Shown here piece after piece: positions 2,224 through 27,257 of a stretch of 57,367 nucleotides of DNA (the first letter of the stretch is position 1; the number at the start of each line of letters is the position of its first letter). The stretch covers positions 1-57,367 of the forward strand of contig REDH01000051.1 in the NCBI GenBank assembly GCA_007693585.1. The letters run 5' to 3'. The DNA comes from Deltaproteobacteria bacterium (GTDB taxonomy: Bacteria; Myxococcota_A; Bradymonadia; REDH01). The notes under the pieces are model-generated. The model made no database searches, was not told the DNA's origin, and was given only the letters and a program-made list of their open reading frames with translations. Position numbers and translations under genes: made by a program.

Positions 2224-3547
2224 CAGGGCGATCGCAAGAACTCGAGTGGTTCTGACGGTTGACCAGCGGATCGGTCCGTGATCGACGCTTCCTGCCGGTG
2301 CATGTTGCTCCGGCCAGGAGGAACAGCAATGACGGATGAAACGCGGACGGATGCGATTGAGGAGGCACTGGCGCACCTGGTGCTTGTCATGGAGGACGTG
2401 ACGGACCCGCGGGGTCGTCAGGGGCGCCGCCACCTTCTCTCCTCGGTGTTGTCGATCGCGGTGTTGGGATGCCTTTGCGGGTGTGATGATGCCGAAGCCC
2501 TGGAGGACTGGGCCGAGAAGGAGGAAGACTGGCTCACGGACTATCTGGAGTTGCGGTGGGGCGTGCCATCGCAGGACACGTTTCTTCGGGTGTTGGCGGC
2601 GGTCGACCAGAGTGAGTTCCGTTGGGCATTTCACCGTTGGGTTCGTGGCGCGTTTCCCGGCGCCGTCGCTGCCGATCAGATCGCAGTCGATGGCAAGACC
2701 GCACGGCGCAGTGGCGACAAGCGTGCGGACGCGAAGGCTGTTCACATGGTGAGTGCGTTGGCGTGCGATGCGAAGGTGGTCCTCGCGCAGATGCCGACCG
2801 CGTCCAAGTCCAACGAGCTCAATGCCATTCGGGCGCTACTGAGGATTCTCGAACTGAAGGGCTCCCTGGTCAGTATCGACGCCATGGCCTGCCAGACCGA
2901 CGTGGCCAGCCGCATCCTTGAGCGAGGCGGCGACTACCTGCTGTCGGTCAAGGACAATCAGGCCAACCTGCGCGAACAGATGGTCCAGGCGTTCGAGGCG
3001 ACGACGCTGGAGCCAACACGAAACGTCGACCGACTCGGTCCGCCAACGCACGAGAAGGACACCGCCGCTGACGCTGGTCATGGCAGGATCGAGGAGCGCG
3101 CTGTGACCGTCATCCACGATTTCGACGACTGGCTCGACGAAGCCACGCGGTCACGGTGGGCGGGCTTGCAGACCCTGATCCGCGTCGAATCCAGGCGCGA
3201 GCATGAAGGTACAGGAAAGGCCCAATCCGAGAAGCGCTACACCATCAGCAGCCGACGCCTGACTGCAGCGGAGGCGAACCAACGTGTACGTACGCGCTGG
3301 GAGGTCGAGAACGGTCTGCACTACGTCCTCGATGTCTCCTTCGGCGAAGACGGCTATCGCGCACGCAAGCAAAACGCTGCGGCCAACTTCATCGTCATCC
3401 GCCACTTCGCCCTGAACCTCATTCGAAGCTTCGATGGGGACAAACTATCCGTTCCGCGGAGACGGAGACTGTGTGACTACAGGCCCGACTATCGGGAGGA
3501 ATTGCTCGCAAGGGTCGCAACCTGAAAATCTTCTTGCGATTGCCCTG
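2224..3547 (+). mobile_element. ISAs1-family insertion sequence (1324 bp)
   Basis: The ends are inverted repeats: CAGGGCGATCGCAAGAA at 2224-2240 and CAGGGCAATCGCAAGAA (reverse complement of 3531-3547), 16 of 17 identical. The single ORF inside is an ISAs1-type transposase and the length fits the family. I see no matching 8-10 bp target duplication in the flanks (GATCGGGGTG on the left, GGTCGCGCGA on the right). A partial extra copy of the left tip, CAGGGCGATCGG, starts at 2208. It may be the remnant of an earlier or adjacent insertion. Confidence 0.88.
2329..3525 (+). CDS. ISAs1-family transposase
   Basis: A 398-residue DDE transposase of the ISAs1/H-repeat type. Recognisable segments are the N-terminal DPRGRQGRRHLL, DQIAVDGKTARRS (first catalytic Asp), SIDAMACQTDVA (second Asp) and WEVENGLHYVLDVSFGEDG (Glu region). 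The ORF extends upstream to 2278, but ATG at 2329 has a strong AGGAGG 7 bases ahead and begins at the conserved N-terminus. It appears intact. It lies divergent to the protease lipoprotein, so insertion may have altered that gene's promoter. Confidence 0.93.
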   Translation: MTDETRTDAIEEALAHLVLVMEDVTDPRGRQGRRHLLSSVLSIAVLGCLCGCDDAEALEDWAEKEEDWLTDYLELRWGVPSQDTFLRVLAAVDQSEFRWAFHRWVRGAFPGAVAADQIAVDGKTARRSGDKRADAKAVHMVSALACDAKVVLAQMPTASKSNELNAIRALLRILELKGSLVSIDAMACQTDVASRILERGGDYLLSVKDNQANLREQMVQAFEATTLEPTRNVDRLGPPTHEKDTAADAGHGRIEERAVTVIHDFDDWLDEATRSRWAGLQTLIRVESRREHEGTGKAQSEKRYTISSRRLTAAEANQRVRTRWEVENGLHYVLDVSFGEDGYRARKQNAAANFIVIRHFALNLIRSFDGDKLSVPRRRRLCDYRPDYREELLARVAT

Positions 3548-11719: not shown

Positions 11720-12460
11720 CTAGTCGGGCGGCGATCCAGGGTCCAGCCACCGATCGGGGAAGAGCACACGGGCGGTGAGTTCGGCCGCGGTGTCCTCACC
11801 GAAGATTCGGGCGAGCGCGTTGTGTTCCCGCCGGTTCGTGCGCTCCGCCTGCAGCCAGCGGCCGAGGCGGCTTGCGCGCTCCGGATCGGCTGTGTCCGCC
11901 CCGGGCACGAGCGCGGGCGCCAGCCGGCCCAGCCAGTGGGCGGTGGCGTCCACGGCGCGGGGAGAGTCCGCGGGCTCAAACCGGCCGATGATGGCTTCGC
12001 TCGAAAAGGTTCCGGTGGTGAATTCAGGGTGTGGGCGTTCGACGAAGGACGAGGGCAGCCCGGACTTCAGGTCGAGCAGAAGTCCGTGCCCGGTGGCGTT
12101 CCACCAGCTCGCGCAGATGGGCGCGAGATCCACGGCGTAGAGACTCAGCCGGCCCCCGAGCGCGATCAGATCCACGCCAACGACAGGGTTGACGGAGCCG
12201 GGATGAGGTAGCCCGATCACGGTCGCGCTGAGTGTGCTGCCGTCCACCTCGGAGCGGATATCCGCGACCAGAAGACTGAGCCACGCTTCGCCCCGCCAGG
12301 CGTCGACTCTCATGCGTACTGGTTTGCGACCGATCACGCCGGGAATGCACCGAAGATGCTCCGGGATCGACAGGGGCTCGGAAGCCAGCGACGGGACCAC
12401 CGTGTCGCGGCAGCCGGCGATGAGCCCTGCCAGAGCGTCGGAGAGGGTGTGCGAAGGCAT
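11720..12460 (-). CDS. Ferredoxin-dependent bilin reductase (PcyA/HY2 family, pre-PcyA-like)
   Basis: A 246-residue protein, the usual FDBR length. FDBRs reduce biliverdin with electrons from reduced ferredoxin in the cytoplasm. By eye it follows the PcyA scaffold. LPHPGSVNPVVGVDLIAL (84-101) matches the strand carrying the catalytic Asp of PcyA (Asp105), here Asp97. Then come LYAVDLAPI and FSSEAIIGRF. The C-terminal LQAERTNRREHNALARIFG plus AELTARVLF matches the conserved Q..N...L..FG...VLF end. The position of PcyA His88 appears to be Thr80, so phycocyanobilin is probably not the product. Its ATG lacks a clear ribosome site. It is divergent from murD and apart from the globin operon, but belongs to the same pathway. 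Confidence 0.83.
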   Translation of the reverse strand: MPSHTLSDALAGLIAGCRDTVVPSLASEPLSIPEHLRCIPGVIGRKPVRMRVDAWRGEAWLSLLVADIRSEVDGSTLSATVIGLPHPGSVNPVVGVDLIALGGRLSLYAVDLAPICASWWNATGHGLLLDLKSGLPSSFVERPHPEFTTGTFSSEAIIGRFEPADSPRAVDATAHWLGRLAPALVPGADTADPERASRLGRWLQAERTNRREHNALARIFGEDTAAELTARVLFPDRWLDPGSPPD

Positions 12461-12736: not shown

Positions 12737-14158
12737 ATGCCCGTCGATCTGCTGCGCAGTCCGTTTCACCCGTCCCGAAGTGCGACACCGCAAGCACCCG
12801 TTGCCGTTCTCGGGCTCGGAGCGAGCGGCATGGGTGCCGTGCGGCTACTCCGGGCGATGGGACGGACGGTGGTCGCGTCCGACGAGCGGGCGACGCATCC
12901 GACGGTGCTCTGCGAGCTGGCGCGAACGGACCCGGGGTTGGCGCTTCACGCCGGAAGGCTCGTCGTTCCGTCCGGGTGTTCGGAGGTGGTGCTGACCCCC
13001 GGTCTGAACCCGGAGTGGGCAGAGCATCGCGAGCGCGAACCGATCGCGCGGCTCGGCGCGGCCGCCAGGCGGGGGCAGATCGCCCTCGTGTCGGAGGTGG
13101 TTCTCGCCCTTGGATGCGTGGCGGCGCCCCGCGTGGTGGTGGGGGGAACCGACGGGAAGAGCACGACGGCCGCGATGGTCCACCATCTCCTGCGCGCGCT
13201 TGATGTGGATGCTCTCCTCGGCGGAAACTCGTGGACGGCACTCGCGGACGTCGTCGTGGATGCGCCGGGCTGCTCGGCGGTGGTGGCGGAGGTCAGCGCC
13301 TTCCAGCTCTGGGCGCCTCAACGGCTGAACGCCGAGGTGGGAATCCTCACGAACGTGGCCGAGGATCATCTCGACCATTATGCGGATGTCGAAACGTATG
13401 CCGCGGCGAAGAGGCGGCTGCTCGAGGGGGAGGTCGGCCTCCGGGTGGTGAACGGGGAAGACGCGCGGCTGGCGACCTGGGCGTCGCAGTGGCAGGCCGC
13501 GGGGCATGCGATCTGTCGCGTGGAGGGCCCGTCCGCGGACGTGGCGATCCGTGTGTCCGAAGGGGTGCTGGACCTGGGCGACGGTCGGACGGTGCCGCTG
13601 GACCGACTGTCGCTCCCCGGGGCGCACAACCGCCGCAATGCGCTGAGTGCGCTGGTGGCGGTGGGGGAGGTGCTCGCACACCTGGGGCGCGAACTGGACG
13701 CGGAGGTGCTGGCGGAGGCACTGGCGGGGTTCCCGGGCCTTCCGCACCGGATGGAACGCGTGCGGGAGCGGGCGGGTGTGGTGTGGCGCAACGACTCGAA
13801 GGCGACGAATCTCCACGCGTCGATGGCGGGCATCGGCGCACTCGAGGGAACGGTCGTGGCGATCGTGGGGGGGGTCGACAAGGGCCTCGCGCTGGCCCCC
13901 TGGCTGGACGTGCTGCGGACGCGGTGCCGTGCGGTCGTGGCATTCGGGGCACTGCGCGCGCGCTTGCTTCGGGAGGTCGGCGACGACGCGCGGTTCACCG
14001 GGGTGGAGACCCTCGAGGAGGCGGTCGGTCTCGCGGCGACGCTTGCGCGGCCGGGGGACACCGTTGTGCTCAGTCCGGGCGCCAGCAGCTTCGACCAGTT
14101 CGCGGGGTTCGAGGCACGGGGCGAGGCGTTCCGGGCGCTGGTGAAGGGGCTGAGCTGA
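12737..14158 (+). CDS. murD: UDP-N-acetylmuramoyl-L-alanine--D-glutamate ligase (MurD)
   Basis: A 473-residue Mur ligase. It has an N-terminal Rossmann segment VAVLGLGASGMGAVRLL (22-38), the ATP-binding loop GTDGKSTT (137-144, with Asp where most have Asn), VAEVSAFQLW, NVAEDHLDHYADVETYAAAK, and LPHRMERVRERAGVVWRNDSKATN in the C-terminal domain. It adds D-Glu to UDP-MurNAc-L-Ala in peptidoglycan synthesis. It stands alone here rather than in a mur/fts cluster, between the bilin reductase and the globin operon. It is strongly biased to G-ending codons. Confidence 0.95.
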   Translation: MPVDLLRSPFHPSRSATPQAPVAVLGLGASGMGAVRLLRAMGRTVVASDERATHPTVLCELARTDPGLALHAGRLVVPSGCSEVVLTPGLNPEWAEHREREPIARLGAAARRGQIALVSEVVLALGCVAAPRVVVGGTDGKSTTAAMVHHLLRALDVDALLGGNSWTALADVVVDAPGCSAVVAEVSAFQLWAPQRLNAEVGILTNVAEDHLDHYADVETYAAAKRRLLEGEVGLRVVNGEDARLATWASQWQAAGHAICRVEGPSADVAIRVSEGVLDLGDGRTVPLDRLSLPGAHNRRNALSALVAVGEVLAHLGRELDAEVLAEALAGFPGLPHRMERVRERAGVVWRNDSKATNLHASMAGIGALEGTVVAIVGGVDKGLALAPWLDVLRTRCRAVVAFGALRARLLREVGDDARFTGVETLEEAVGLAATLARPGDTVVLSPGASSFDQFAGFEARGEAFRALVKGLS

Positions 14159-14279: not shown

Positions 14280-15317
14280 TCAGTCGGGTGCAGCGAGCAC
14301 TGCCGCGATGGCGTCCACGAGCCGGATGTCGGCGTTCTGCACGGCCTCCCAGAGGCCGGGGAGGCGTGTCGTGGCCGAGCTTCCCTCGGCGACGGTCGAC
14401 TCCACCTCCCGAAGGAGCGTTGCGACGGTGCCCGCGGCCTCCGCCGCGTCGTCGAGCAAGCGAGGAGGACCGCCGAGCAGTCGATGGGCAACCGGCGCAC
14501 GGAAGAAGCGCTCCCCGGCTGCACGGGCCAGCGCGTACTCGGCGATCACGCGTCGAAGGAAGTGACGCGCCTCGTCGTCCACGGCCGCGGTCGCGGCGCT
14601 GAAGTGGGCCATGCGGCGCCATGCTTCGAGGCCGGCTGCATAGAAGGCCTCTTCGTCATGGACGAGCTCGAGCCGCATGCGGAGGTGGCCCGTTGCCCAT
14701 TTCAGAACGTCTCGCGCGAGCACACCCGCCAGTCGCTCACTCGCCGGGTCTCCTGCGGGCCGCAGGGTGAGCAACTCCTCGACGTCACAGACCGGCGCCG
14801 CGAGCCAGTCTGCGCTGCGAAGATCTGCGGTCCATTCCACGTCGGAGCCCTGGCTTCCGATCGGCGTGAGGGTCAGGCGGAGGCTGCCGTCGCGTTCGTG
14901 GATCGAGCGGACCCTCTCCCAGCGGTCGGGGGAGGCGCTGCGACGGAGCGCGAGGGGTCGCCCCTCCTCGCGCTCGTGGCGGAGGAGCTGGACGAGCTCG
15001 GCGCCGCGGAGGGCGGTCCATCGCCGGGCGTCGAGCCCGGTGTGCCCCGCGATGGCTTCGAGCAGCCCATAGTGATCCACGGACAGGCTGCGCAGGCGCC
15101 AGCGCACCTCCGGGTGGGTGGCGGCGAAGCCGTGGTTGTCGTCCGGGGCGAAGAAGTAGGTTCGCAGCGCGGCGCCGCCGAGGACGGCGAGCTCAGCCGG
15201 ATCGGGCGGGGGGCCCTGGCAGGCAGCGAGGGCGGACACGGCGCAGCAGAGCGGCATCAGCCCGGGGTCGCTGCTGTCGGACCGCAGGGGGATCGGGACG
15301 CTGTCGGACGGGGTCAT
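14280..15317 (-). CDS. Hypothetical protein, last gene of globin (BBAG) operon
   Basis: A 345-residue soluble protein. The N-terminal half has PLCCAVSALAACQ, YFFAPDDNHGFAATHPEVRW and LSVDHYGLLEAI. The order Cys then DHY is faintly reminiscent of BtrH/C39-type papain-like folds, but this is a weak suggestion. The C-terminal half is largely helical (DVLKWATGHLRMRLELVHDEEAFYAAG, HFLRRVIAEYALARAAGERFF). ATG at 15317 is the first good start, 83 bases after the membrane-protein gene on the same strand. It converges on murD. Function unknown. Confidence 0.6.
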   Translation of the reverse strand: MTPSDSVPIPLRSDSSDPGLMPLCCAVSALAACQGPPPDPAELAVLGGAALRTYFFAPDDNHGFAATHPEVRWRLRSLSVDHYGLLEAIAGHTGLDARRWTALRGAELVQLLRHEREEGRPLALRRSASPDRWERVRSIHERDGSLRLTLTPIGSQGSDVEWTADLRSADWLAAPVCDVEELLTLRPAGDPASERLAGVLARDVLKWATGHLRMRLELVHDEEAFYAAGLEAWRRMAHFSAATAAVDDEARHFLRRVIAEYALARAAGERFFRAPVAHRLLGGPPRLLDDAAEAAGTVATLLREVESTVAEGSSATTRLPGLWEAVQNADIRLVDAIAAVLAAPD

Positions 15318-15400: not shown

Positions 15401-16735
15401 TCACGGCGCAGCAGGGCTTCCCGAGACCTGGAAGGTGATCCGGGGCCGCGGGCCGTCGGTGGAGACGCCCATCGCGATGTGCGCTCCGGGCCGCTCGCGG
15501 AGCAGGCGCTGCTGTTCGTCGCGCAGGCGCTTGGAAAAGCGGGGATAGTCGATGTGCTGCATGGGCTGGCCCGCCCGCTTCAGCGCGGTGAGAAACTCCG
15601 TGTAGACGCGCCGGCACTCGCGCTCGATCGGATCGGCGACACCGTGGACCAGGTCGTGCCGCGCGCGGTCGATGAGGTCCGAGGAGACGTCCTGGCGGAT
15701 GGTCGGCACGGCACCGCCCGGCATGGTGCCGGTCCCGTGGATGTTGCGGGAGGTTCGATGGGCCGGCGCGTCGGAGCCGAGCTGTGCGTGGGTGTCCGGG
15801 TCGAGGGCCGTGGCGCGTGGGGCGAGGGAGCGCGAGGTGACCACGGCGTCACGCTTCCGTCCACCCGCCTGGTGCACGGCGCGGCGCGCCGGGGGGCGGG
15901 CGAGGATGGCGGCGGGCATCGACTGCGCCGGCTCGGGGTCGGCGAACGCGCCGGCGAGTTCCTCGGCCGATGCCTGGCCATCACCAACGACGGAGAACTG
16001 TCCCGGTCGATCCGAGGGTGCGCCCGTTCCGAAAGGGCTGGTGCGGGCAACCTGGCTGAGCGGTCGCACGTCGGTCGCCGCGGGGGAGTCGGACGGCTTC
16101 TCGAACGACGCAACCGGTCGGGAGCCGGGAGTGGTCGAAGGGTTCGGCGGCTGCCCGGGCGAGGCCGCACGAGGCTTGCTGGCGCCGGTCAGCGAGATGC
16201 CGCGCGAGGCCGGCCGTGGGCCGGAGGAAGCCAGGTCGGGGTCGACATCGGAGAGCGCGAACAGCAGGGAACGAAACGACGGCTGGTAGTCGTCCTGCGG
16301 CACGTCCTTCGGCGCGAGATCCTCGAAGAGGGAGGTCGCTGGTGCGGCGTTTGTGCTCGGGTCGCCAGGGTCGTCGAAGGCGGCGAAGAGATCGTCGGCC
16401 GTGGTCGCGTTGACGGATGGGACCGGCGGACTGTCGGCGTCGTTCGGGGAGACCGATGGCCGACCGGCGGAGGGTGGATCGGTTCGGGCCTTCTCCTGGG
16501 CACCGGAGATGCTGCCGTCATCGGAACAATCCGTGGATGCGAGGTCGTCTGCGTCCGCATCATCGCGTCCGGGCGCCGTTCGAGTGCGAAGGACGAACAC
16601 GACGAGGAGGCAAAGGAGGGTACCGGCGACCACTCCGGTTGTGACGCCGAGCCGGGGGGCGACGGGAAGCAGGATGCCGGCGGCGGATCCGACCGCGATG
16701 ACGGGCAGAAGCAGCAGGATGTTCTTGCGTGTCAT
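15401..16735 (-). CDS. Membrane protein with MXAN_5187-type C-terminal domain
   Basis: A 444-residue protein. Two membrane helices at residues about 5-50 (NILLLLPVIAVGSAAGILL and VVAGTLLCLLVVFVL) are followed by about 290 residues of disordered Ser/Pro/Asp-rich sequence. A conserved-looking C-terminal domain ends it (CRRVYTEFLTALKRAGQP, IDYPRFSKRLRDEQQRLL, RITFQV). That end matches my memory of the MXAN_5187 C-terminal domain of myxobacterial proteins, whose role is unknown. The start overlaps the stop of the upstream kinase (ATGA), so the two are co-translated and this may be the kinase's partner or substrate. Confidence 0.75.
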   Translation of the reverse strand: MTRKNILLLLPVIAVGSAAGILLPVAPRLGVTTGVVAGTLLCLLVVFVLRTRTAPGRDDADADDLASTDCSDDGSISGAQEKARTDPPSAGRPSVSPNDADSPPVPSVNATTADDLFAAFDDPGDPSTNAAPATSLFEDLAPKDVPQDDYQPSFRSLLFALSDVDPDLASSGPRPASRGISLTGASKPRAASPGQPPNPSTTPGSRPVASFEKPSDSPAATDVRPLSQVARTSPFGTGAPSDRPGQFSVVGDGQASAEELAGAFADPEPAQSMPAAILARPPARRAVHQAGGRKRDAVVTSRSLAPRATALDPDTHAQLGSDAPAHRTSRNIHGTGTMPGGAVPTIRQDVSSDLIDRARHDLVHGVADPIERECRRVYTEFLTALKRAGQPMQHIDYPRFSKRLRDEQQRLLRERPGAHIAMGVSTDGPRPRITFQVSGSPAAP

Positions 16736-18480
16736 GAGGACTCCGTGGACAGGGACAGGGCGAAGGCGCGCAGCACGGGGGCGTCGTCGAGGCATCGCGC
16801 CAGAAGCAGGTCTCCACAGGCGCAGACGTCCGGGCCCAGATCGCGAACGTCGAGCATTCCGAGCGAGCGGGGTTGCCGGGTGTCGATGCCCTGGACGTGG
16901 AAGGCAGTGAGGGCGAGGAGTCGCCCGGGCCGTGGCGCCAGAAGCTCGAGCACCGGATCCTCGGTGGGACAGGTGGCGAGCACGAAGCCCTGCCGGGAGA
17001 TGAGCTGCAGTCCGGTGCGCCCTTGCGCAGCGATGGCAACCCCGCCGTCCTCGAGGGACGCGAGGAGGGGCTGGCCGACCGGGACGGTGAGATCGGCACG
17101 CATCGCGCCCGTTGGGTCGAGGGCCAGGAGTCGGGTCCGGGGAGACTCGGTCGCGATCCAGAGCAGGTGTCCCTCGTGGTCGAAGGCAACCGGAGGCAGC
17201 GTGCCCCAGGCGCTGACGTCGAATGAGCAGGCCTCGCCCTGCCCGTGGAGCGGGATTCGCTGCACGGCATTCGGGGTGGCGACGGCGATGGTGGAGCCAT
17301 CGGGAGCTGCGCGCAGATGCCGGGGACCCTCGGGAAGACCTTCGTGGAGGAGGTGGAGGCGGCCTTCCCGGAGCTGCAGAACCTGACACCGGTCGACGAG
17401 AAGAGGGTGCGGACTGCGGATGGTTCCCTCGATCAGCACGGCCTCCGGGTGGGGACGCGGCGCCTGATCGATGGGTCTGCCGTCTGCCCCGATGCGAACG
17501 ACCCGGTCGTGCAGGAGCAGGGCGGCCTGACCGTCGGCCAGCGACGCGATCTGAAGCGGACGCACGGGCAGGCGCAGGCGCCAGCACGCGACCCGCTCCA
17601 GTGCATGGTCGTGGGGAAGCACATGGGCACCGGTCCAGCGCTCGCCCCGGATCGTTGCCAGCACCCGGTCGACCAGGGTCTCGAGCTGCGCCGCCGACGA
17701 GGGCCGATCTCCGGGCTCCTTGGCGAGGAGTGTTTCCAGCAGTGCGCGAAGAGCCGGATGGAGGGAGTCGGGCAGCCCGGGAGCAAGCTGCCGATGGGCG
17801 TGCTTCAGGGCGGTCTGATCCCCGTGGAACGGGCGGCGGCCGAAGAGCAGTTCATAAAGAATGACACCGAGTGCGTAGAAGTCCACTCGGTGGTCGCAGT
17901 CGTCCCCGAACTGCTCGGGAGCCATGTACGCCGGAGAGCCATGGTCGAGCTGGAAAGTGGTGCCGGGTGCGGCGCGATGCGCGAGGCCGAAGTCGCAGAT
18001 CCGCACCGGGTGCAGCTCATGGGTGTGCAGCAGCAGCAGATTCTCGGGCTTCAGGTCGCGGTGGACGATGTCCCGCTCGTGGGCGAACCGAAGGCCCCGC
18101 ACGACATCCCGCAGAATGGCGAGCGCGTGGCGGGCGGGCAGCCTGTGCTGACGCACGAGGAGATCGCGGAGGCTTCCGCCGGCAGCGTACTCGTACGCGA
18201 TGTACTTTCGACCTGCGGAGTAGCCGAAGTCGAGGGTGCGGACGATGTGGGGATGTTGCTGATCGAAGAGCAGGCCGAGTTCCTTCAGGTATCCGGTATC
18301 CCGAAACTTCACGTCGAATATCTTGATGGCGGCCGGCGTGCGGTCGGCGAGGTTGCGGGCGAGCCAGACCGTGCCGAATGCACCGCTTCCGAGGGGCCGC
18401 TCGAGCCTCCAGCGTCCCCCGAGGAGGGCGGATGGCGCAGGGGACGATGGAGGGTCGTGAGGAGAGTGGAGAGTGGCCAT
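16732..18480 (-). CDS. Ser/Thr protein kinase with C-terminal beta-propeller-like sensor
   Basis: A 582-residue cytoplasmic Hanks kinase. It has LGSGAFGTVWLA (30-41), Lys53, HRDLKPEN (140-147, Asp142), DFG (163-165) and SPAYMAPEQF. The C-terminal 270 residues are repeats of short strands (LHLLHEGLPEGPRHLRAAPDG, VAFDHEGHLLWIATESP, LLALDPTGAMRADL), suggesting a beta-propeller-like domain. There is no membrane helix. It lies 71 bases after V4R protein A and is translationally coupled to the MXAN_5187-type membrane protein, so phosphorylation signalling appears to be part of the globin operon. Confidence 0.9.
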   Translation of the reverse strand: MATLHSPHDPPSSPAPSALLGGRWRLERPLGSGAFGTVWLARNLADRTPAAIKIFDVKFRDTGYLKELGLLFDQQHPHIVRTLDFGYSAGRKYIAYEYAAGGSLRDLLVRQHRLPARHALAILRDVVRGLRFAHERDIVHRDLKPENLLLLHTHELHPVRICDFGLAHRAAPGTTFQLDHGSPAYMAPEQFGDDCDHRVDFYALGVILYELLFGRRPFHGDQTALKHAHRQLAPGLPDSLHPALRALLETLLAKEPGDRPSSAAQLETLVDRVLATIRGERWTGAHVLPHDHALERVACWRLRLPVRPLQIASLADGQAALLLHDRVVRIGADGRPIDQAPRPHPEAVLIEGTIRSPHPLLVDRCQVLQLREGRLHLLHEGLPEGPRHLRAAPDGSTIAVATPNAVQRIPLHGQGEACSFDVSAWGTLPPVAFDHEGHLLWIATESPRTRLLALDPTGAMRADLTVPVGQPLLASLEDGGVAIAAQGRTGLQLISRQGFVLATCPTEDPVLELLAPRPGRLLALTAFHVQGIDTRQPRSLGMLDVRDLGPDVCACGDLLLARCLDDAPVLRAFALSLSTESS

Positions 18481-18551: not shown

Positions 18552-19205
18552 TCAGCGGGGCTTGCGCAGCTCGGCGAGGAGCTGCTCGGAGGACGCACCA
18601 TCGAGGGCGAGCGCGCGGGCGGACTCGACCCGCTCCGGGACGGCGACGATGAAGCGGCAGCAGGGCGCGCCGGAGCGCTCGCACGCGATCTCGATGGCGT
18701 CGAGTTCCGTCTCGGCGAAACGGGAGGTCATCGCCGCAAGGAGCCCGGCGAAGATGTGACAGACCGTGTCGAACGGGCTGTCCGCGAGCAGCCGCGCGAA
18801 CACGGACCGGCGGAGCCTGAACTCGAGCAGACCTTCGTCCTCCAGGCCGAACTCCAGTTCGAGGTGGCCCCAGCCCTGATGCTCGAACAGCAGGCGCAGC
18901 CAGGTCTCGAAGGCCGTGAAGTCTGCGTCCGCCAGCGCGTGGCCATAGAAGTGGGTCCACTCCTGCTCCCATCGCCGGACGAGCCGCTCTCCCCATTGCC
19001 GCCCACAGCCGGTCATGATGAGCGGGAGCGCCTTGCCGGTCTCGTGCTCGGTCGCACGATGCACGCCGATGATGAGCTCCTCGGGCAGGACGAGCAGCTT
19101 GTGGCCGGACGCACTGCGGAGGGTACCCTCCCAGGCACTGGCCTCGATGTAGTCGTCCCTCAGGTAGAAGGGATGCGGAGCGATGTGGGCCATGGGAGCG
19201 GTCAT
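18552..19205 (-). CDS. V4R (4-vinyl reductase-type) domain protein A
   Basis: A 217-residue protein. The C-terminal half carries V4R features: SPFDTVCHIFAGLLAAMTSRF and DAIEIACERSGAPCCRFIV, with the paired Cys and E..C...G..CC.F pattern. The V4R fold binds small hydrophobic ligands or metals and occurs in BchJ-like proteins. The ATG at 19205 overlaps the globin stop (19202-19204) as ATGA; Met5 at 19193 is an alternative start. In published BBAG clusters two V4R proteins accompany the globin, as here. A role in binding or handing over bilin is inference. Confidence 0.8.
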   Translation of the reverse strand: MTAPMAHIAPHPFYLRDDYIEASAWEGTLRSASGHKLLVLPEELIIGVHRATEHETGKALPLIMTGCGRQWGERLVRRWEQEWTHFYGHALADADFTAFETWLRLLFEHQGWGHLELEFGLEDEGLLEFRLRRSVFARLLADSPFDTVCHIFAGLLAAMTSRFAETELDAIEIACERSGAPCCRFIVAVPERVESARALALDGASSEQLLAELRKPR

Positions 19206-19693
19206 CGCGCACCTCCACCGTCACGCTGCAGCGTGAGCAGTTCGTGCGTGCGACGAAGGTACGGGGCCAGCAGCCTGACCTGGTCCGCGGAGAGGTGCGC
19301 CTCCACCCGCTGCGGAAGCAGTCGGTACGTGGTGTCGATCACCGGACCCATCCGGAAGGCCTGCAGGATGGTGCGCAGCCAGTACAGCAGATGCTCCTCC
19401 AGGAACGTCATGTCCTGTCGGACCATGGCCTGGGTGCAGTAGCGCAGCACCAGACGGACGTCGCGCTCGCCCCTGGCCCGGGCATCGGCGTGACGGGTCT
19501 CGAAGTCGGGGTGCTGGGCCCAGACGGCATCGATGGTCTCCCGGACGATGGCATCCTCGTGGGCATCGACGGCGTGCATCGCGGAGAGCCGAGCGTCCAT
19601 TCCGGAGGCGAAGTCGGTGAGGGTGCGGGCCTCTTCCTGCGAGAAGTAGCGGCCCTCGGACTGACTGAAGAGCGACTGGAGGGATGGGTTCAT
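19202..19693 (-). CDS. Phycobiliprotein-like globin (bilin-biosynthesis-associated globin, BBAG)
   Basis: A 163-residue protein, the size of a phycobiliprotein subunit. The central helix RDVRLVLRYCTQAMVRQDMT and the following LEEHLLYWLRTILQAF align by eye with the RD..YYLR..TY...AGD...LDE..L.GL...Y.A stretch of phycocyanin and allophycocyanin. Arg77 and Asp78 match the Arg86/Asp87 that contact the bilin. The Cys84 that carries the thioether-linked bilin is replaced by Gly75, and the only Cys is Cys86. Binding, if any, is therefore non-covalent or unusual. A good AAGGAG precedes ATG 19693. Neighbours are two V4R proteins and a ferredoxin, the diagnostic BBAG company. Confidence 0.82.
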   Translation of the reverse strand: MNPSLQSLFSQSEGRYFSQEEARTLTDFASGMDARLSAMHAVDAHEDAIVRETIDAVWAQHPDFETRHADARARGERDVRLVLRYCTQAMVRQDMTFLEEHLLYWLRTILQAFRMGPVIDTTYRLLPQRVEAHLSADQVRLLAPYLRRTHELLTLQRDGGGAR

Positions 19694-19728: not shown

Positions 19729-20241
19729 TCACCAGTCGAGATCGCCGAACACGGCGTCGACGGTGGGCACGGGTGCCGCCCCCTCGGGGACAGGGGCGGT
19801 CTCGGCCGGCGACGAGGGCTTGCCGCTCCACACCACGGCGGAGAACCGCTGGCGCACGGAGCGGCCGATGGCGACCGCTGCGCGCTCCGGCACGCGCGGT
19901 CCATGCCAGGCGACGGCCTGCAGCCGAGCCCGGACGGAGACGCTTCCCGTCCGGGCGGAAGCGCTCTGCTCCGGGGCCGTCAGCCGTGATGCAGGCACCA
20001 TTGCTGGTTCGGGCTGGCCACGGTCCTGGACCTGGTTCCAGGCCGCATCCCACTCCGACGAGTCGGCGAGGGCTGGCAGGACGCGACTGCTGTCCTCCGC
20101 CGGAGGCTGCTGCTCCCCCGGAGCGCGACCAGGAGCCGGAACGGGTGGCGGCGGGGGCAACGAACCGGCACGGGACGAGCGACTGGCCAGCCCGAGGAGG
20201 CGGGACAGGGTGCTGCGGGTTCTGGGAGGCTGGTCGGTCAT
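19729..20241 (-). CDS. Proline-rich protein of the globin operon, unknown function
   Basis: A 170-residue low-complexity protein. Residues about 29-50 are a Pro-rich run (SLPPPPPVPAPGR). SEWDAAWNQVQ lies in the middle, a basic helix-prone segment (SVSVRARLQAVAW...VAIGRSVRQRF) follows, and an acidic-aromatic C-terminus DAVFGDLDW ends it. No known domain. It sits 15 bases after V4R protein B and 35 before the globin, with a GGAG site ahead of its ATG, so it is a real operon member. Its flexible build suggests an adaptor or linker rather than an enzyme (inference). Confidence 0.65.
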   Translation of the reverse strand: MTDQPPRTRSTLSRLLGLASRSSRAGSLPPPPPVPAPGRAPGEQQPPAEDSSRVLPALADSSEWDAAWNQVQDRGQPEPAMVPASRLTAPEQSASARTGSVSVRARLQAVAWHGPRVPERAAVAIGRSVRQRFSAVVWSGKPSSPAETAPVPEGAAPVPTVDAVFGDLDW

Positions 20242-20256
20242 GCGGAACTCCAGTGC

Positions 20257-20910
20257 TTACTGCTCGCCGAGGCGGCGAATGATGTCCGAGGCCCGGGCAC
20301 CTTCGCTCAACCAGAATTCCGCGGCGTCGACCCGCTTCTCGCTCCCGATCAGGAAGCGGCAGTGGTCCTCGCCCATCGCGTAGCACTGGATCTCGATGCA
20401 GCTCAGCTCGCGCCGGATGAAGGTGGAGAACGCTCCGGCCATCATCCCGGCGTAGAGGTGACAGACCGGCTTGCCGAGCGGCTCGAGGCTCTGCGCGACA
20501 GCCGAGTTGTACAGGTCCACCATGATGTAGCCCTGCTTCACCCGCGACAGGTCCACGCGCCAGGAACCCCAGCCAGCAGCGGTCAGCGGCCACCACCAGG
20601 TCTCGAGGACGAAGTTGACGTTCATGTCACGCGCGGAGCGCCCGAACTCGCCCTGGACGCGCTCCTCGAAGCGCTGCATGTCCACCTTCCCCCACTCGAG
20701 GCCGCACTGGTACATGATCACGGCGCTGGCCTCGCCCACCTCGTTCTCGAGACCCTCCTGCAGCCCGACGATGAAGTCCTCGGTGCACATCATGCCCACC
20801 CCGCCGTAGCCGAGCTGGAGCGCCGAGTCGCCGACGGTGCGACGCAGGAAGTCGCTCTTGCCGTAGTAGTTGTGCTTGCGGGCTTGCCCGCCGATCAGGA
20901 TGTCACTCAT
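20257..20910 (-). CDS. V4R domain protein B
   Basis: A 217-residue protein beginning MSDILIGGQARKHNYYGKSD. The C-terminal V4R domain is clear: PLGKPVCHLYAGMMAGAFSTF, LSCIEIQCYAMGEDHCRFLIG and the trailing helix. The Cys pattern matches V4R protein A, and the two have the same length, though the N-terminal halves differ. It follows the ferredoxin by 34 bases and precedes the Pro-rich protein. The start at 20910 has a GGTGGA site 5 bases away. Likely ligand: a bilin or another tetrapyrrole (inference from context). Confidence 0.82.
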   Translation of the reverse strand: MSDILIGGQARKHNYYGKSDFLRRTVGDSALQLGYGGVGMMCTEDFIVGLQEGLENEVGEASAVIMYQCGLEWGKVDMQRFEERVQGEFGRSARDMNVNFVLETWWWPLTAAGWGSWRVDLSRVKQGYIMVDLYNSAVAQSLEPLGKPVCHLYAGMMAGAFSTFIRRELSCIEIQCYAMGEDHCRFLIGSEKRVDAAEFWLSEGARASDIIRRLGEQ

Positions 20911-20944: not shown

Positions 20945-21418
20945 TCACGCGTCGTCCGCCAGGTCGTCGTTGACCTGAAAGTCGACGTCATTGAGCTGCA
21001 TGATGAAGCTGCGTGTGATGATCTTGCCCGGTTCGACCAGGACTCGACCATCGATCGGATGGAGAATGGCGGTGCGCGCCCGTTTCCCGATGAGAGACTC
21101 GATGTCCTTTCGGTCGAGCGCATAGAGCCCATCGGGCAACGACACGCGGACGCCCTCGCCACAGACCCGCGCCTGACATGCGAGGCGGCTGTTCGGACGC
21201 GTGCCCGACAGACGACCCAGCGTGCGGTCCTCCCGGGCGTTGCGCGGAGAGAGCGACTCGGACCCCTCCTCCACGAAGACGTGGCACGTGGCACAAAGAC
21301 CCCGCCCGCCGCACGCCATCATCACCCCGACCTCCTCCGCGAGGAGGGCGTCGAGCACGCGTGCATTGGTCTTGATCTCGGGCTGACGCCCGAGCGGCAG
21401 CAGGCTGACCTTCTTCAT
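20945..21418 (-). CDS. 2Fe-2S ferredoxin (plant/chloroplast-type fold) with C-terminal extension
   Basis: A 157-residue protein with Cys36, Cys42 and Cys45 in ACGGRGLCATC and the fourth ligand Cys81 in LACQARV, the spacing of [2Fe-2S] ferredoxins. After the ferredoxin domain (about 95 residues) there is an extension of about 60 residues (LDRKDIESLIGKRARTAILHP...IITRSFIMQLNDVDFQVNDD) also seen in some adenylate-cyclase-linked ferredoxins. It is the obvious electron donor for the bilin reductase. Its ATG overlaps the stop of the preceding gene (ATGA), and V4R protein B follows. Confidence 0.9.
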   Translation of the reverse strand: MKKVSLLPLGRQPEIKTNARVLDALLAEEVGVMMACGGRGLCATCHVFVEEGSESLSPRNAREDRTLGRLSGTRPNSRLACQARVCGEGVRVSLPDGLYALDRKDIESLIGKRARTAILHPIDGRVLVEPGKIITRSFIMQLNDVDFQVNDDLADDA

Positions 21419-22776
21419 GACTCACCTCCAGGGTCGCACGCACTCCACGGCGCGGGGGGCAGGGGACCGAGCACCAGATCCTCGAAGGACGGAATCACTC
21501 GGCGCCCTCGGGAAACGACCTGCTCGAGGGCACCGTCCAGGTGGGGCATCTGCGTCGGGTCCACGCATGCCTGGGCGTCGTGCACCTGCACGGCCCCACT
21601 CGCAGAAACCCGAACGTGTCGATCGAGCTGGGCAACGCCGAGGGCCTGCCGCCAGTAGTTGGATGCGACCCGTGGACCCGTGTGATCGCCGATCGCGGCA
21701 ACGCTGCGCTCGATCCACGCACCCACCTCTTCCCAGCGGCAGGCAGCACTGAACGGGGCATCGGCCGGTGACATGTCCTCGCGAGTGTCCGACTCGACCA
21801 CGAGCTCCCACTGCAACTCGGACAGCGCGCCACCGCCGGAAGCGGCCGCGTGAACTCCCGCTCCCTTTTGGGGGTCCGCAGCCGGGGGGCGGGACCCAGC
21901 GGTTTCCGAAGCGCCCACGGCAGGGACCGAGAGCGTCGGCCCCTCCTCCCGCCTGGAGAGCACGCTCCGAGAGACAGACGATCCCGCACGGCTTCCCGAG
22001 CTGGCCCTCCGGATGGCGGCCCGCAGCAGGAGAGGACGGCACGGCTTGCCAAGCGCGACATGCAACCCGTGACCGCTCGTCACGACCAGCAGATGGTGCT
22101 GGGGCGTCAGAAGCCGAAGCTCGGTGATGTCCAGCTCGGTCTCCAGAACCATCGAGCACAGCAGCTCGGCGGTCTCCTCCCAGACACCGGCGTCCGTTGC
22201 CGGCTCCCGGAGCACGGACCACGTCCCCTGACGCTGCATCTCCCAGATGCCCGCCTCCGGCCCGGAACGACCTCCGGTGCCAAAGAGGGCACCGGGCACG
22301 TTCACCGTGCTTGCAAGAAACGCCTCCAGATCGGGACAGGAGTCACCATCGCACAGATGGACGTGCCGGCTGTCGTCGATCGCGAGCCAGCGGCCGGTCG
22401 TGGTCCACAGGGATGCGCCGCTCCACGGACCCCGCTGGTGTGAAGCAGCGGTCTCGAGGGCCGCGCGCAACAGCTCGACCACGTCCCTCGGCACGTCTGG
22501 GCCATGCCCTTCCGAGACCACGCGACCAAGCCGATCGAGCGTCCGCCGCCGCATCGGTCCCTGTCCGTCGCTTCCCGAAGGACGCTCGGGCCCACCATCT
22601 GCCGCTCCACCTCCGGAAGCGGAAGGACCGGGCTCGACGGTCCGGCCCGACGGCGAGCGGCTGCTTTTGAGATGCGTGTTCACGGGGGGGAATCTCGGGG
22701 CGGGGTCTGCAGACCACGAGCTGCGGCTGCCGGTCCCAGCCATTTCAAGGCCCGTGCCAGCGACTGTTTCATTCAT
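21415..22776 (-). CDS. Hypothetical first gene of globin operon (possible roadblock/LC7-like segment)
   Basis: The first ORF of the operon, about 380-450 residues depending on start. ATG 22776 gives the longest plausible form. ATG 22554 has a CAGGGA site and lies downstream of a putative -24/-12 promoter at 22759-22744, so I favour 22554. The core has two blocks. The first ends in LLCSMVLETELDITELRLLTPQHHLLVVTSGHGLHVALG and faintly resembles a roadblock/LC7 fold. The second contains WEEVGAWIERSVAAIGDHTGPRVASNYWRQALG. A Ser/Gly/Pro-rich linker joins them. No catalytic motif. It is translationally coupled to the ferredoxin. Confidence 0.6.
   Translation of the reverse strand: MNETVAGTGLEMAGTGSRSSWSADPAPRFPPVNTHLKSSRSPSGRTVEPGPSASGGGAADGGPERPSGSDGQGPMRRRTLDRLGRVVSEGHGPDVPRDVVELLRAALETAASHQRGPWSGASLWTTTGRWLAIDDSRHVHLCDGDSCPDLEAFLASTVNVPGALFGTGGRSGPEAGIWEMQRQGTWSVLREPATDAGVWEETAELLCSMVLETELDITELRLLTPQHHLLVVTSGHGLHVALGKPCRPLLLRAAIRRASSGSRAGSSVSRSVLSRREEGPTLSVPAVGASETAGSRPPAADPQKGAGVHAAASGGGALSELQWELVVESDTREDMSPADAPFSAACRWEEVGAWIERSVAAIGDHTGPRVASNYWRQALGVAQLDRHVRVSASGAVQVHDAQACVDPTQMPHLDGALEQVVSRGRRVIPSFEDLVLGPLPPAPWSACDPGGES
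22744..22759 (-). promoter_or_regulatory. Candidate sigma-54 (-24/-12) promoter of globin operon
   Basis: On the minus strand TGGCACGGGCCTTGAA matches the consensus TGGCACGNNNNTTGCW with a perfect -24 block. The -12 block is TTGAA, so the usual C of the GC doublet is replaced. Predicted transcription would start near 22733 and supports a downstream translation start (22554). The RpoN-activator gene lies immediately upstream. Confidence 0.5.
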
Positions 22777-22793
22777 CGAACGCGTTGTTCGAT
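22775..22793. promoter_or_regulatory. Inverted repeat next to the -24/-12 element
   Basis: ATCGAACGCGTTGTTCGAT has perfect 7-bp arms around a 5-bp spacer. It lies about 16 bases upstream of the -24 element on the minus strand. It resembles the Gram-positive SOS box core CGAAC...GTTCG, but the spacer is 5, not 4. It could be a binding site for the neighbouring regulator. Confidence 0.4.
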
Positions 22794-22933
22794 TGTGGGG
22801 CCATCTTCCCGTTTCCTGCATACGCGCACCACCCTGGCGGCCGATGTCGGCTCCGGGGGGGGCTCCCACAGGAACCGGCATGACGCGGCGCATCGCACAA
22901 ACAGATGGCGCATCCGTGGAACGGTGCGTTCAT

Positions 22934-23410: not shown

Positions 23411-24760
23411 TCAGAGGAGACCGAGCTTCTTCAGCCGATGCCGAAGCTGATAGCGGCTCAGACCCAGAAGCTTCGCCGCGGCGCTCTGATTGCCGCCGCA
23501 TCGATCCATGGCCTGACGCACGAGATGCGCTTCGACGTCCTCCAGCCGAACACCGCCTTCCGGAAGGACGAAACGATCCAGGTCGTCGGGTGGTGACGCA
23601 TAGCGCACTGCGGGTGGCAAGTGCTCCGGAAGAATCTGCTCTCCGTCCACGAAGACGGAGAGTCGTTCCATCGTGTTCTTCAGCTCGCGAACGTTCCCGG
23701 GCCAACAGTAGTCCAGAAGGTGCTTCGCGGCCGGTGCCGAGATCGTCAGAACGGGACGCTCGAACTGTCCTGCGAACGAGGCGAGGAAGACCCGAGCCAG
23801 TGCGAGAATGTCCTCCTTGCGCTCGCGCAGGGGCGGAATCGAAAGCGGGATGACGGCGAGGCGATAATAGAGATCCTGACGGAACCGGCCCTTCTCGACC
23901 TCCAGCCGGAGGTCTCGGTGGGTCGCTGCGACCACGGACGCGCGGAGAGGCAGGGTCTCCGTGCCCCCCACCCGGCGAAAGGTCCTGCTCTCGAGGGCCC
24001 TCAGAAGCTTGGACTGAACCCCCTCCGGGAGCTCACCCACCTCGTCCAGAAAGACGATCCCGTCCTCCGCGGACCCGAACAGGCCGAGCTGGCGCTGGTT
24101 CGCACCGGTGAACGCCCCCCGCTCGTGGCCGAAGAGCGTGGACTCGAAGAGCGCGTCGGGGATGGTCGAACAGTCCACCTCCACGAACGGGCGAGCGCGG
24201 CGGCACCCTTCGTGATGGAGCGCCCGCGCCACCAGCTCCTTGCCTGTGCCCGACTCGCCGTGCAGCAGGACGGTGGAAAAGTCCAGCTCCCTCAGTCGGG
24301 ACAGCTGGTCGAACACGTGGTGCATCGCTGGAGAGGCCGCCTGCAGCTCCGCGTATGTCCTCAAGGCAGAATGGGACTCCGGAGCGCCAGGGTTGCGATG
24401 TCCCGTTTCGCGTCGGAGCGACTCCAGCAGCCGCTTCGGCTCGAACGGCTTCATCAGGAACTCCGAGGCCCCCAGCCGGGTCGCCTTGACCGCCGAGGAG
24501 ACGTCCCCCTGACCGGTCAGGATGAGGACGGCTCCCTCGTACCCCTCCCGACGCAACGTCCGCAGAATCCGCAGGCCGTCCTCGTCGGGAAGTCCAAGAT
24601 CCAGGAGCAGGGCGTCCGGAGGCTCGAGCCGGACCCGGTCGAGGGCGTCCCGTCCGCTCGCCGCCTCCTCCACATGAAGACCGTCCGAACGCAGCAGGCG
24701 CACGACGCTCCGCCGCAGGCGGTCATCGTCATCACAGATCAGGACACGTCGTTGACTCAT
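23411..24760 (-). CDS. Sigma-54-dependent NtrC-family response regulator
   Basis: A 449-residue three-domain regulator. The receiver domain has the acidic pair at 10-11, phospho-acceptor Asp54, Thr82 and Lys104. The AAA+ domain has Walker A GESGTGKE (168-175), the sigma-54 contact loop GAFTGA (215-220), VFLDEVGELP and the arginine-finger region FRQDLYYRL. The Fis-type helix-turn-helix is at the C-terminus (GGNQSAAAKLLGLSRYQLRHRLKKLG). Start ATG 24760 has GGGAGAG upstream. It is divergent from a histidine kinase and flanked by the globin operon on one side and, past the kinase, heme oxygenase on the other. It is the likely activator of both. Confidence 0.95.
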   Translation of the reverse strand: MSQRRVLICDDDDRLRRSVVRLLRSDGLHVEEAASGRDALDRVRLEPPDALLLDLGLPDEDGLRILRTLRREGYEGAVLILTGQGDVSSAVKATRLGASEFLMKPFEPKRLLESLRRETGHRNPGAPESHSALRTYAELQAASPAMHHVFDQLSRLRELDFSTVLLHGESGTGKELVARALHHEGCRRARPFVEVDCSTIPDALFESTLFGHERGAFTGANQRQLGLFGSAEDGIVFLDEVGELPEGVQSKLLRALESRTFRRVGGTETLPLRASVVAATHRDLRLEVEKGRFRQDLYYRLAVIPLSIPPLRERKEDILALARVFLASFAGQFERPVLTISAPAAKHLLDYCWPGNVRELKNTMERLSVFVDGEQILPEHLPPAVRYASPPDDLDRFVLPEGGVRLEDVEAHLVRQAMDRCGGNQSAAAKLLGLSRYQLRHRLKKLGLL

Positions 24761-24883
24761 TCTCTCCCTGTGAACAGTGCATCCCGTTCGAGCCTGCGGA
24801 AGCCGTCTTCGCGGTGTCGAAACGGTCACCGACCACTCGCGCTTCTGCCGCTCCACTTCAAACCCCCGCCCGGCGCAACGAGC

Positions 24884-26431
24884 ATGGATGCATCCACACC
24901 GGATTCTGATGCGGAAACGCCACCGGACAGCGCTCCGGAACCCGATCGAACCACCCCGATCTCACGCGGGCTGCCGGTTCCCGACGATGTGAAGTCAATG
25001 CGCGCTCGACCATGGGTAGCGTCCCTGCTGGATCATCTGCCGGCGGGCATTGCCCTGATCGACGAGTTCGGCTTCATCCGGGACCTGAGCCGGGAAGGCG
25101 CGGAACTGCTGGGCGTGAAGCGACGGGAGATGATCGGCCAGCATGTGCTGGCCACGGTGCCGGACGGGCTTCGAGACGTGGCCATGGAGGCGTTCGATGC
25201 CCTCGTCCGCTCCGACGTGCTGCAGGATGCCGTCTGGCCCATGAACCAGGGTTTCGGAGGAATTCGCAGCTTGCGCCTGCGCCATCGCGGCTGGACTGCG
25301 CCGGATGGCAGTCGATGGGTGCTCGCCGTCGCGATGCACGAGCAGGAGAACGTCGATCGGGCTGCCGAATTGCTGCGCAGTACGGAGGTGATCGAGCGGC
25401 TGCTGGAGCAGCTCCCCGGGACGATCGCGCGTCTTGATCCCGCCGACATCGTTCGGTGGATGCGTCCCTCGGGCGGGGTGGCCGCCGCCATGAATCTCGA
25501 TCAGCGGGTCATCCATCAACTCAGCGATCTCGTGCCTGCGGACATTCTCGAGATCCTTCCGCCGTCCGTCCGCGACGGACAGCAGTCGTTCCGGTTTCGT
25601 GCCCGGGACGACGATCCCGACACCCTCCTCGAGGGCTGGTTTTTTCCCATGACCAGCGGAGAGTCGACCCTGCAGCTACGCCTCGTCCACCGAAAGGCAG
25701 GGCGCTACCGTCGGGAGCTGCAGGAGGCGATGGACCTCCTCTACGCGGGCCTCGCCCACGAGATCCGGAATCCGCTGGCGCTCGCGCGGACCAGCCTCGG
25801 CTACCTCGAACGCCGCCTCGATATCCCTGCGGACCCCGATCTGGCCGAGGCCTTCGACGACATTCGCGATGCGCTGCGACAGGTGGCCGATGTCCTCCAG
25901 CACATGCGCACGGTTCACCACGGCGTGGCATCGCCCGGGATCACCGACCTCCGGGAGGTGGTCGAGCGAAGCCTTCGGGTCGCCCGCGTCGGATTCCCGG
26001 ACGGGGTCGTCGTGCACCACGAGCCTGGCCCCCCCGCACCGGTACACGGCCCCCGGCAGCCCCTCGTCCAGGTGCTCGTCAACCTGCTGACCAACGCTGG
26101 AAACGCGCTGCGCCGGGTGCCCGAGAATGCGCGCTGCATTCGCATCGAGCTCCGGCGAGACGCCGACTGGCAGGTCCTGAGGCTGTCCGACACCGGCAAT
26201 GGCCTCGCGCCCGAGCAACTCCGGCACCTCTTCACCGGCGGGAGCAGCAGCCGGGTCACCGAGGAGTCCAGCGGACTCGGGCTCTTCCTCTCCCGGCAGA
26301 TCGTCGAGTCCTTCGGCGGAGATCTCGCCTTCGAGGGCCCATCCCGAAGCGGGACCACCGTGTCCCTGCGGCTCAGGGTCGCGGACGACGACAGGAAAGG
26401 GGAGACGGACACCGGGACCGGCAGCTCCTGA
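24884..26431 (+). CDS. PAS-domain sensor histidine kinase
   Basis: A 515-residue soluble kinase with no membrane helix or signal peptide. A PAS domain covers residues about 45-155 (LLDHLPAGIALIDEFGFIRDLSREGAELLG), and a second PAS-like region about 168-270 (LLEQLPGTIARLDPADIVRWMRPSGG). HisKA has His292 in LAHEIRNPL, and HATPase_c has NLLTNAGNAL, DTGNGLAPEQL and SSGLGLFLSRQIVESFGG. No GAF/PHY module and no bilin-attachment Cys are visible, so it is not a classical phytochrome; its signal is unknown. The gene is divergent from the sigma-54 regulator (123 bases apart), forming an obvious two-component pair. Confidence 0.93.
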   Translation: MDASTPDSDAETPPDSAPEPDRTTPISRGLPVPDDVKSMRARPWVASLLDHLPAGIALIDEFGFIRDLSREGAELLGVKRREMIGQHVLATVPDGLRDVAMEAFDALVRSDVLQDAVWPMNQGFGGIRSLRLRHRGWTAPDGSRWVLAVAMHEQENVDRAAELLRSTEVIERLLEQLPGTIARLDPADIVRWMRPSGGVAAAMNLDQRVIHQLSDLVPADILEILPPSVRDGQQSFRFRARDDDPDTLLEGWFFPMTSGESTLQLRLVHRKAGRYRRELQEAMDLLYAGLAHEIRNPLALARTSLGYLERRLDIPADPDLAEAFDDIRDALRQVADVLQHMRTVHHGVASPGITDLREVVERSLRVARVGFPDGVVVHHEPGPPAPVHGPRQPLVQVLVNLLTNAGNALRRVPENARCIRIELRRDADWQVLRLSDTGNGLAPEQLRHLFTGGSSSRVTEESSGLGLFLSRQIVESFGGDLAFEGPSRSGTTVSLRLRVADDDRKGETDTGTGSS

Positions 26432-26573: not shown

Positions 26574-27257
26574 ATGAACCACTCTGTCCTCTCCACGCGC
26601 TCGAACCCTCCCGTGCCTCGATCGCCCGTCGGTCGGCCGGATGGACAACCCCTCCACGTGCTCCTGCGAGACGGCACGCGGCAGGTGCACAATGCCATCG
26701 AGGAGGCCGAACTGCACAGACGACTCCTGGAGCACACCCTGTCCCGCCAGGAATACGCCCACCAACTGCAGATCTACTGCACTGCCTGGTCCACGCTGGA
26801 GAGCGTGGCCGCATCATGGCAGGCGAAGGCTCCGGAGCTCCTCGGTCTGCTCCACAGCCGCGTTCCTGCGCTCGAACAGGACCTCGAGCGCCTGGGCGCT
26901 TCGCGCTGGCCCCTTCCGGAGAAGGCGCTGGATCGTCTCCTGCGGTGGAGGGAGGAGGCGCTCGCAGAAGCGAGCGCCGGCAGTCCAGCGGTCATCGGTC
27001 GCGTCTACGTCATGGAGGGGGCCTCGCTGGGCGCCCGGATCCAGATCCGGCACTTGCGCCGTTGTCCGGAGGTGCCCGAGGAGGCCCTCACCTTCTTCAG
27101 CCAGTGCGCAGACCGGGAGAGCGGTCGGTGGGGCGCCTTTCTGCACGCCCTCGCTGCCCGACCCTTCGTCCGGACGGATGCCGAGGAGATCGTTCTGGGC
27201 GCTTGCCGACAGTTCGAGGCGCTGCACGAGCTCTTCGAGCTGTGCGTCCGGATCTGA
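26574..27257 (+). CDS. Heme oxygenase (biliverdin-forming)
   Basis: A 227-residue heme oxygenase of the bacterial BphO/HO type. LRDGTRQVHNAIEEAELH contains the proximal heme ligand, probably His39. The distal helix region is VIGRVYVMEGASLGARIQIRHL, matching the conserved Y-V-x-E-G-S-x-L-G-G segment. It opens heme to biliverdin, CO and iron, giving substrate for the bilin reductase encoded at 11.7-12.5 kb. ATG 26574 is the only good start before the domain. The first 25 residues are probably disordered. It follows the histidine kinase by 142 bases, has its own -24/-12 promoter, and converges with the flotillin operon. Confidence 0.9.
   Translation: MNHSVLSTRSNPPVPRSPVGRPDGQPLHVLLRDGTRQVHNAIEEAELHRRLLEHTLSRQEYAHQLQIYCTAWSTLESVAASWQAKAPELLGLLHSRVPALEQDLERLGASRWPLPEKALDRLLRWREEALAEASAGSPAVIGRVYVMEGASLGARIQIRHLRRCPEVPEEALTFFSQCADRESGRWGAFLHALAARPFVRTDAEEIVLGACRQFEALHELFELCVRI

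Follow-up and report, generated by a model that had tools for sequence, protein, structure and literature searches.

Apart from HY2 of vascular plants, ferredoxin-dependent bilin reductases (FDBRs) are described as depending critically on a central Asp, and in PebS and PebB a catalytic Asp is found in the loop around the position of PcyA Asn219 (PMC6755814). In PcyA, Glu76, His88, and Asp105 are all essential, with Glu76 serving as the first proton donor and His88 donating a proton to the A-ring lactam (PMC9800206). In some cases, phylogeny is only a weak guide to the regiospecificity of FDBRs, and phycocyanobilin (PCB) is made by algal HY2 proteins, which are not PcyA enzymes (PMC13193486).

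The pre-PcyA enzymes are proposed ancestors of PCB synthesis, which has been suggested to have arisen through the gain of Glu76 (PMC10151467). Their pre-3 class, as defined by Rockwell, Martin and Lagarias (2023), has Asp105, carries Thr for His88, and lacks Glu76; it was known solely from metagenome-assembled genomes, mostly of Myxococcales, and its gene clusters encode a heme oxygenase, an Fe-S protein, two V4R proteins, and a phycobiliprotein-like globin (BBAG) (PMC10151467). One pre-3 enzyme has been assayed so far, MBL9008304, which converts biliverdin to phytochromobilin and phycoerythrobilin (PEB) and yields no PCB (PMC10151467); products vary within FDBR lineages. Here, we describe an FDBR encoded in a 57,367-nucleotide contig (REDH01000051.1, hereafter the window) whose family, clade, retained and missing residues, and gene neighbourhood, as read from the sequence, fit the described pre-3 class on all features that could be compared. 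The chemistry proposed for it below is predicted from the one assayed relative.

Identity and phylogenetic placement

Fe_bilin_red (PF05996) is the sole Pfam match of a 246-aa protein encoded by an intact frame that opens with an ATG at 12460 and closes with a stop at 11720-11722 (Table 1). The match spans 13-228 of 228 positions, yet it scores 20.6 bits (E 3.8e-4) against a cut-off of 31, and in a PF05996 search of the genome the protein is absent at the default threshold and appears with E 0.003 at a looser one. Family membership is settled by alignment with homologs that match PF05996 more strongly, to which the protein is 30-37% identical; it also shares 33-38% identity with loci above the PF05996 cut-off (tblastn E 1e-25 to 1e-34). 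On these sequence grounds, the window protein is an FDBR. Its third-position G+C is high and its codon-position composition resembles that of the neighbouring genes, which share the high third-position G+C; it has lost some residues of its clade, such as a basic one at 143 and the Leu of position 229.

Within the phylum, PF05996 is matched in 15 of 377 genomes. IQ-TREE places the window protein (P0001) in a clade with support of 100/99 together with L019, L020, L021, L023, L025, L030, and L032, seven relative loci from five genomes of the same phylum; with the query, the clade comprises eight rows and six genomes. PF05996 is matched by each of the seven clade members that were scanned (best E 2.7e-18), and Thr occupies position 88 in seven of the eight rows. 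The clade lies near PcyA but outside the PcyA rows, and the branch of P0001 is long (1.19), its position within the clade being unsettled. G267 and G321 contain a second FDBR copy (L023 and L032) in which Glu replaces Asp105 and position 88 holds Thr or Ala. Two further candidates were set aside, namely L001, a genome-contig relative that proved to be a chance alignment with an in-frame stop, and L003, a match in G046 with three stops. Neither a V4R protein nor an FDBR was found in the five same-family genomes searched.

AlphaFold models of the window FDBR were poor, with a pLDDT of 38.9 from the single sequence and 45.4 from nine sequences. The best Foldseek matches of the nine-sequence model were PcyA structures, a match that is weak and partly circular because TM-scores were near 0.3 and PcyA rows were part of the model input.

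Active-site residues

The active site was compared in a 25-sequence alignment that took in Synechocystis PcyA (residues 53-245, from the PDB), phage PcyA, and PebS, and that gave the window/PcyA pairs D97/D105, T80/H88, A66/E76, L64/H74, N209/N219, and R211/K221. A profile of seven clade members aligned with PcyA in the same register (hhalign E 2.7e-11, 186 columns, 16% identity), and both alignments place T80 on H88 without a gap between the T80 and D97 positions. An earlier, sequence-only reading had equated Asp97 with PcyA Asp105, which held in every alignment tried, small ones included; it had also, with some reserve, put Thr80 at the position of His88 and proposed a profile alignment as a check, and the PcyA comparison indeed puts Thr, and no His, at position 88. 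When MAFFT was given few outside sequences, position 80 at times slid or gapped and D97 never did, so the match of Thr80 to His88 rests on bridging homologs and the profile alignment.

The seven-member clade alignment shows no variation at T80, N209, or E212, and T80 is therefore a feature of the clade rather than an isolated change. Position 66 is Ala or Ser throughout the same alignment, and position 97 is Asp, bar one paralog with Glu. Asp67, one residue downstream of Ala66, was considered as an acid at position 76 and rejected, as both alignments place Ala66 there. The PcyA triad is thus incomplete in the window FDBR (A66, T80, D97), and the pre-3 residue pattern is present; the clade recovered in the tree likewise consists of sequences with pre-3 features. 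The loss of Glu76 is a further missing residue that the sequence-only reading had not mentioned.

Gene neighbourhood and a second cluster

All of the pre-3 cluster genes are present in the window (Table 1). On one strand, the [2Fe-2S] protein is followed by V4R, linker, BBAG, V4R, Ser/Thr kinase, and two orfs, beyond which, past the divergent MurD gene, lies the FDBR; MurD and the two orfs separate it from its cluster, and the nearest V4R gene is some 6 kb away. The heme oxygenase, PAS histidine kinase, and sigma-54 response regulator are found at the cluster end opposite the FDBR. The ferredoxin that had been described as clustered with the reductase was confirmed as a [2Fe-2S] gene in the linked cluster, and the assignment of the reductase to the pre-PcyA kind holds, with the Asp present and the His absent. 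A DDE transposase is encoded near the start of the window (2278-3525).

Table 1. Features of the bilin reductase locus (window coordinates)
Feature	Position	Strand	Evidence or remark
FDBR (probable pre-3 type pre-PcyA), 246 aa	11720..12460	-	PF05996 E 3.8e-4; 100/99 clade; hhalign to PcyA E 2.7e-11
Codon of Asn209 (PcyA Asn219 position)	11834..11836	-	25-sequence alignment
Codon of Asp97 (PcyA Asp105 position)	12170..12172	-	25-sequence, profile, and small alignments
Codon of Thr80 (PcyA His88 position)	12221..12223	-	25-sequence, clade, and profile alignments
Codon of Ala66 (PcyA Glu76 position; 18-vinyl proton donor absent)	12263..12265	-	25-sequence, profile, and clade alignments
MurD-like Mur ligase	12737..14158	+	Divergent from FDBR, between FDBR and cluster
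345-aa orf without family match	14280..15317	-	
444-aa orf	15401..16735	-	Weak match to the MXAN_5187 C-terminal domain; the C60 cluster has a homolog
Ser/Thr protein kinase	16732..18480	-	
V4R protein, second type	18552..19205	-	
BBAG, GERD instead of CXRD	19202..19693	-	PF00502 E 3.6e-18
Low-complexity linker protein, C-terminus FGDLDW	19729..20241	-	
V4R protein, first type	20257..20910	-	PF02830
[2Fe-2S] ferredoxin, likely electron donor	20945..21418	-	PF00111 E 3.1e-10; ISC-type ferredoxin model below cut-off
Orf without assigned function	21415..22893	-	Homolog at same place in C60 cluster, 31% over 247 aa
Sigma-54-type response regulator	23411..24760	-	48% to C60 copy
PAS histidine kinase	24884..26431	+	
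Heme oxygenase, likely biliverdin source	26574..27257	+	PF01126 E 4.7e-16

The order FeS-V4R-BBAG-V4R-kinase-FDBR is common to three genomes of the clade (L056, L057, and L060), in which the cluster runs into the FDBR without the MurD/orf break of the window; in L060, a heme-oxygenase-like match comes right after the FDBR. A kinase-like sequence adjoins the FDBR in these three loci, as it does in L059 and L067. Kinases are widespread, however, and because the match covers the kinase domain only, the FDBR-adjacent kinase could not be established as an ortholog. In each of the two clusters of the genome, a divergent pair of sigma-54 response regulator and histidine kinase (window 23411-26431) separates the heme oxygenase from the Fe-S/V4R/BBAG genes; the sequence read around the FDBR of L056, L057, and L060 showed no similar pair.

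The second of these clusters, on contig C60 (L070 5340-17418), encodes a heme oxygenase, histidine kinase, sigma-54 response regulator, orf, Fe-S protein, V4R, linker, BBAG, V4R, ParA, and kinase. It contains no FDBR, and a clade-profile search of the genome found no second one, so that the genome has two clusters and a single FDBR. Identity between the C60 and window copies is 80% for the first V4R protein, 71% for the Fe-S protein, 56% for the second V4R protein, 55% for the BBAG, and 48% for the regulator. Past the shared kinase and the 444-aa-type orf, C60 continues into a bacteriophytochrome on the other strand and the window into an orf, MurD, and the FDBR. The bacteriophytochrome (L159 1492-5337, minus strand; GAF/PHY/PAS/HATPase/receiver) directly adjoins the C60 cluster; Cys14 lies close to its N-terminus, and the site of the GAF Cys of Cph1-type proteins is occupied by Thr. 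Phytochromes with an N-terminal Cys and no Cph1-type GAF Cys bind biliverdin; the C60 phytochrome should therefore do so as well, and as a candidate user of the reduced bilin it was judged unlikely.

The CXRD Cys is absent from both BBAGs of the genome, whose motifs read GERD and AVRD, and present in L056 and L060. Gly, Ala, or Thr stands in its place in the BBAGs of the window, L070 (12367-12840), L160, and L057 (5783-6268). The linkers between V4R and BBAG in the window and in L070 (11297-12355) are of low complexity, repeat SVRxxF....W-like motifs, and end in F..LDW, and similar short orfs occur at this place in L056, L057, L060, and L160.

Predicted product and alternative explanations

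We consider it probable, at roughly three chances in four, that the window enzyme is a pre-3 type pre-PcyA that reduces biliverdin at the A-ring to phytochromobilin, possibly onward to phycoerythrobilin, and makes no phycocyanobilin. The heme oxygenase (26.6-27.3 kb) would open heme to biliverdin, the [2Fe-2S] protein (20.9-21.4 kb) would pass single electrons to the FDBR, and Asp97 would protonate the bilin. Because the Glu76 proton donor is absent, the D-ring vinyl group (18-vinyl) is expected to stay unreduced while the A-ring is reduced, and the resulting bilin may be delivered to the clustered globins. The sequence-only reading had likewise predicted a bilin other than PCB, starting from the loss of His88 and from the idea that His88 and Asp105 together steer PcyA to PCB. 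That prediction is sound but already covered by the pre-3 pattern, published with non-PCB products. Its premise needs amending: the residue to which the literature ties PCB formation (18-vinyl reduction) is Glu76. As this residue is Ala66 here, the missing His88 by itself is not what best predicts the product.

The long branch, the sub-cut-off Pfam score, and the loss of some clade residues speak against the pre-3 reading, as do the poor structure models and the reliance on a single assayed enzyme in a family whose lineages vary in product. The branch length would also suit a decaying or non-catalytic FDBR beside a cluster that works without bilin reduction, as the C60 and cyanobacterial clusters seem to; the distance of the gene from its cluster, the FDBR-less C60 cluster, and BBAGs without the CXRD Cys point the same way. 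We nonetheless regard decay as quite improbable, given an intact frame, the retention of D97, N209, and R211, and a codon-position composition that resembles that of the neighbours. An active enzyme with another product, either 15,16-dihydrobiliverdin or phycoerythrobilin made through a PebA/PebS-like order of reduction, is unlikely: the lack of a His at position 88 recalls PebS (Asn), and MBL9008304 also yields PEB, but the second Asp of PebB/PebS corresponds to Asn209, as in PcyA, and no pre-PcyA has been reported to stop at dihydrobiliverdin. Weak tracking of phylogeny by regiospecificity in some cases, together with the PCB-making algal HY2 proteins (PMC13193486), leaves some room for a true PcyA in which other residues replace His88 and Glu76; with both residues absent, the clade outside the PcyA rows, and no PCB from the assayed pre-3 enzyme, such a PCB producer is highly improbable.

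With the CXRD Cys missing from both BBAGs of the genome, the case for A-ring reduction leading to covalent attachment is weakened. One diverged pre-3 reductase might instead serve two paralogous clusters with Cys-less globins, the bilin being a non-covalent ligand or signal, not a covalent chromophore, that would act with the V4R proteins, the linked two-component pairs, and the kinases; we hold this proposal to be rather unlikely.

Significance and comparison with known systems

The window FDBR is soundly viewed as an expected further pre-3 member in a non-photosynthetic bacterium, the pattern of the class and the products of its tested member being already published. Less ordinary are the two paralogous clusters with one FDBR, the position of the FDBR apart from its cluster, and the Cys-less BBAGs. 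The second cluster, the Cys-less BBAGs, and the absences in the same family bear on the purpose of the reduced bilin, and a genome in which one reductase accompanies two clusters offers material for probing the role of BBAG/V4R clusters. As a diverged pre-3 member, the enzyme is also a natural variant for testing which change, at Glu76 or His88, gave phycocyanobilin.

Among characterized enzymes, Synechocystis PcyA (PDB 2d1e) shares with the window FDBR the family, Asp105, and Asn219, and its His74, Glu76, and His88 are Leu64, Ala66, and Thr80 here. PebS of phage P-SSM2 shares the family, the central Asp, and the lack of a His at position 88, but has Asn there and lies far outside the window FDBR clade in the tree. 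Cyanobacterial clusters of the slr0144-slr0149 type resemble the C60 cluster in having an Fe-S protein, two V4R proteins, and a BBAG without an FDBR (PMC10151467), whereas C60 also carries a heme oxygenase, a two-component pair, a ParA-like gene, and an adjoining bacteriophytochrome. MBL9008304 is likened to the window FDBR by its published features. The window differs from the described pre-3 systems in its separated FDBR, two-component genes, second FDBR-less cluster, and BBAG without the CXRD Cys, and shares with them Asp at 105, Thr at 88, and no Glu at 76, as well as the cluster of heme oxygenase, Fe-S protein, two V4R proteins, and BBAG.
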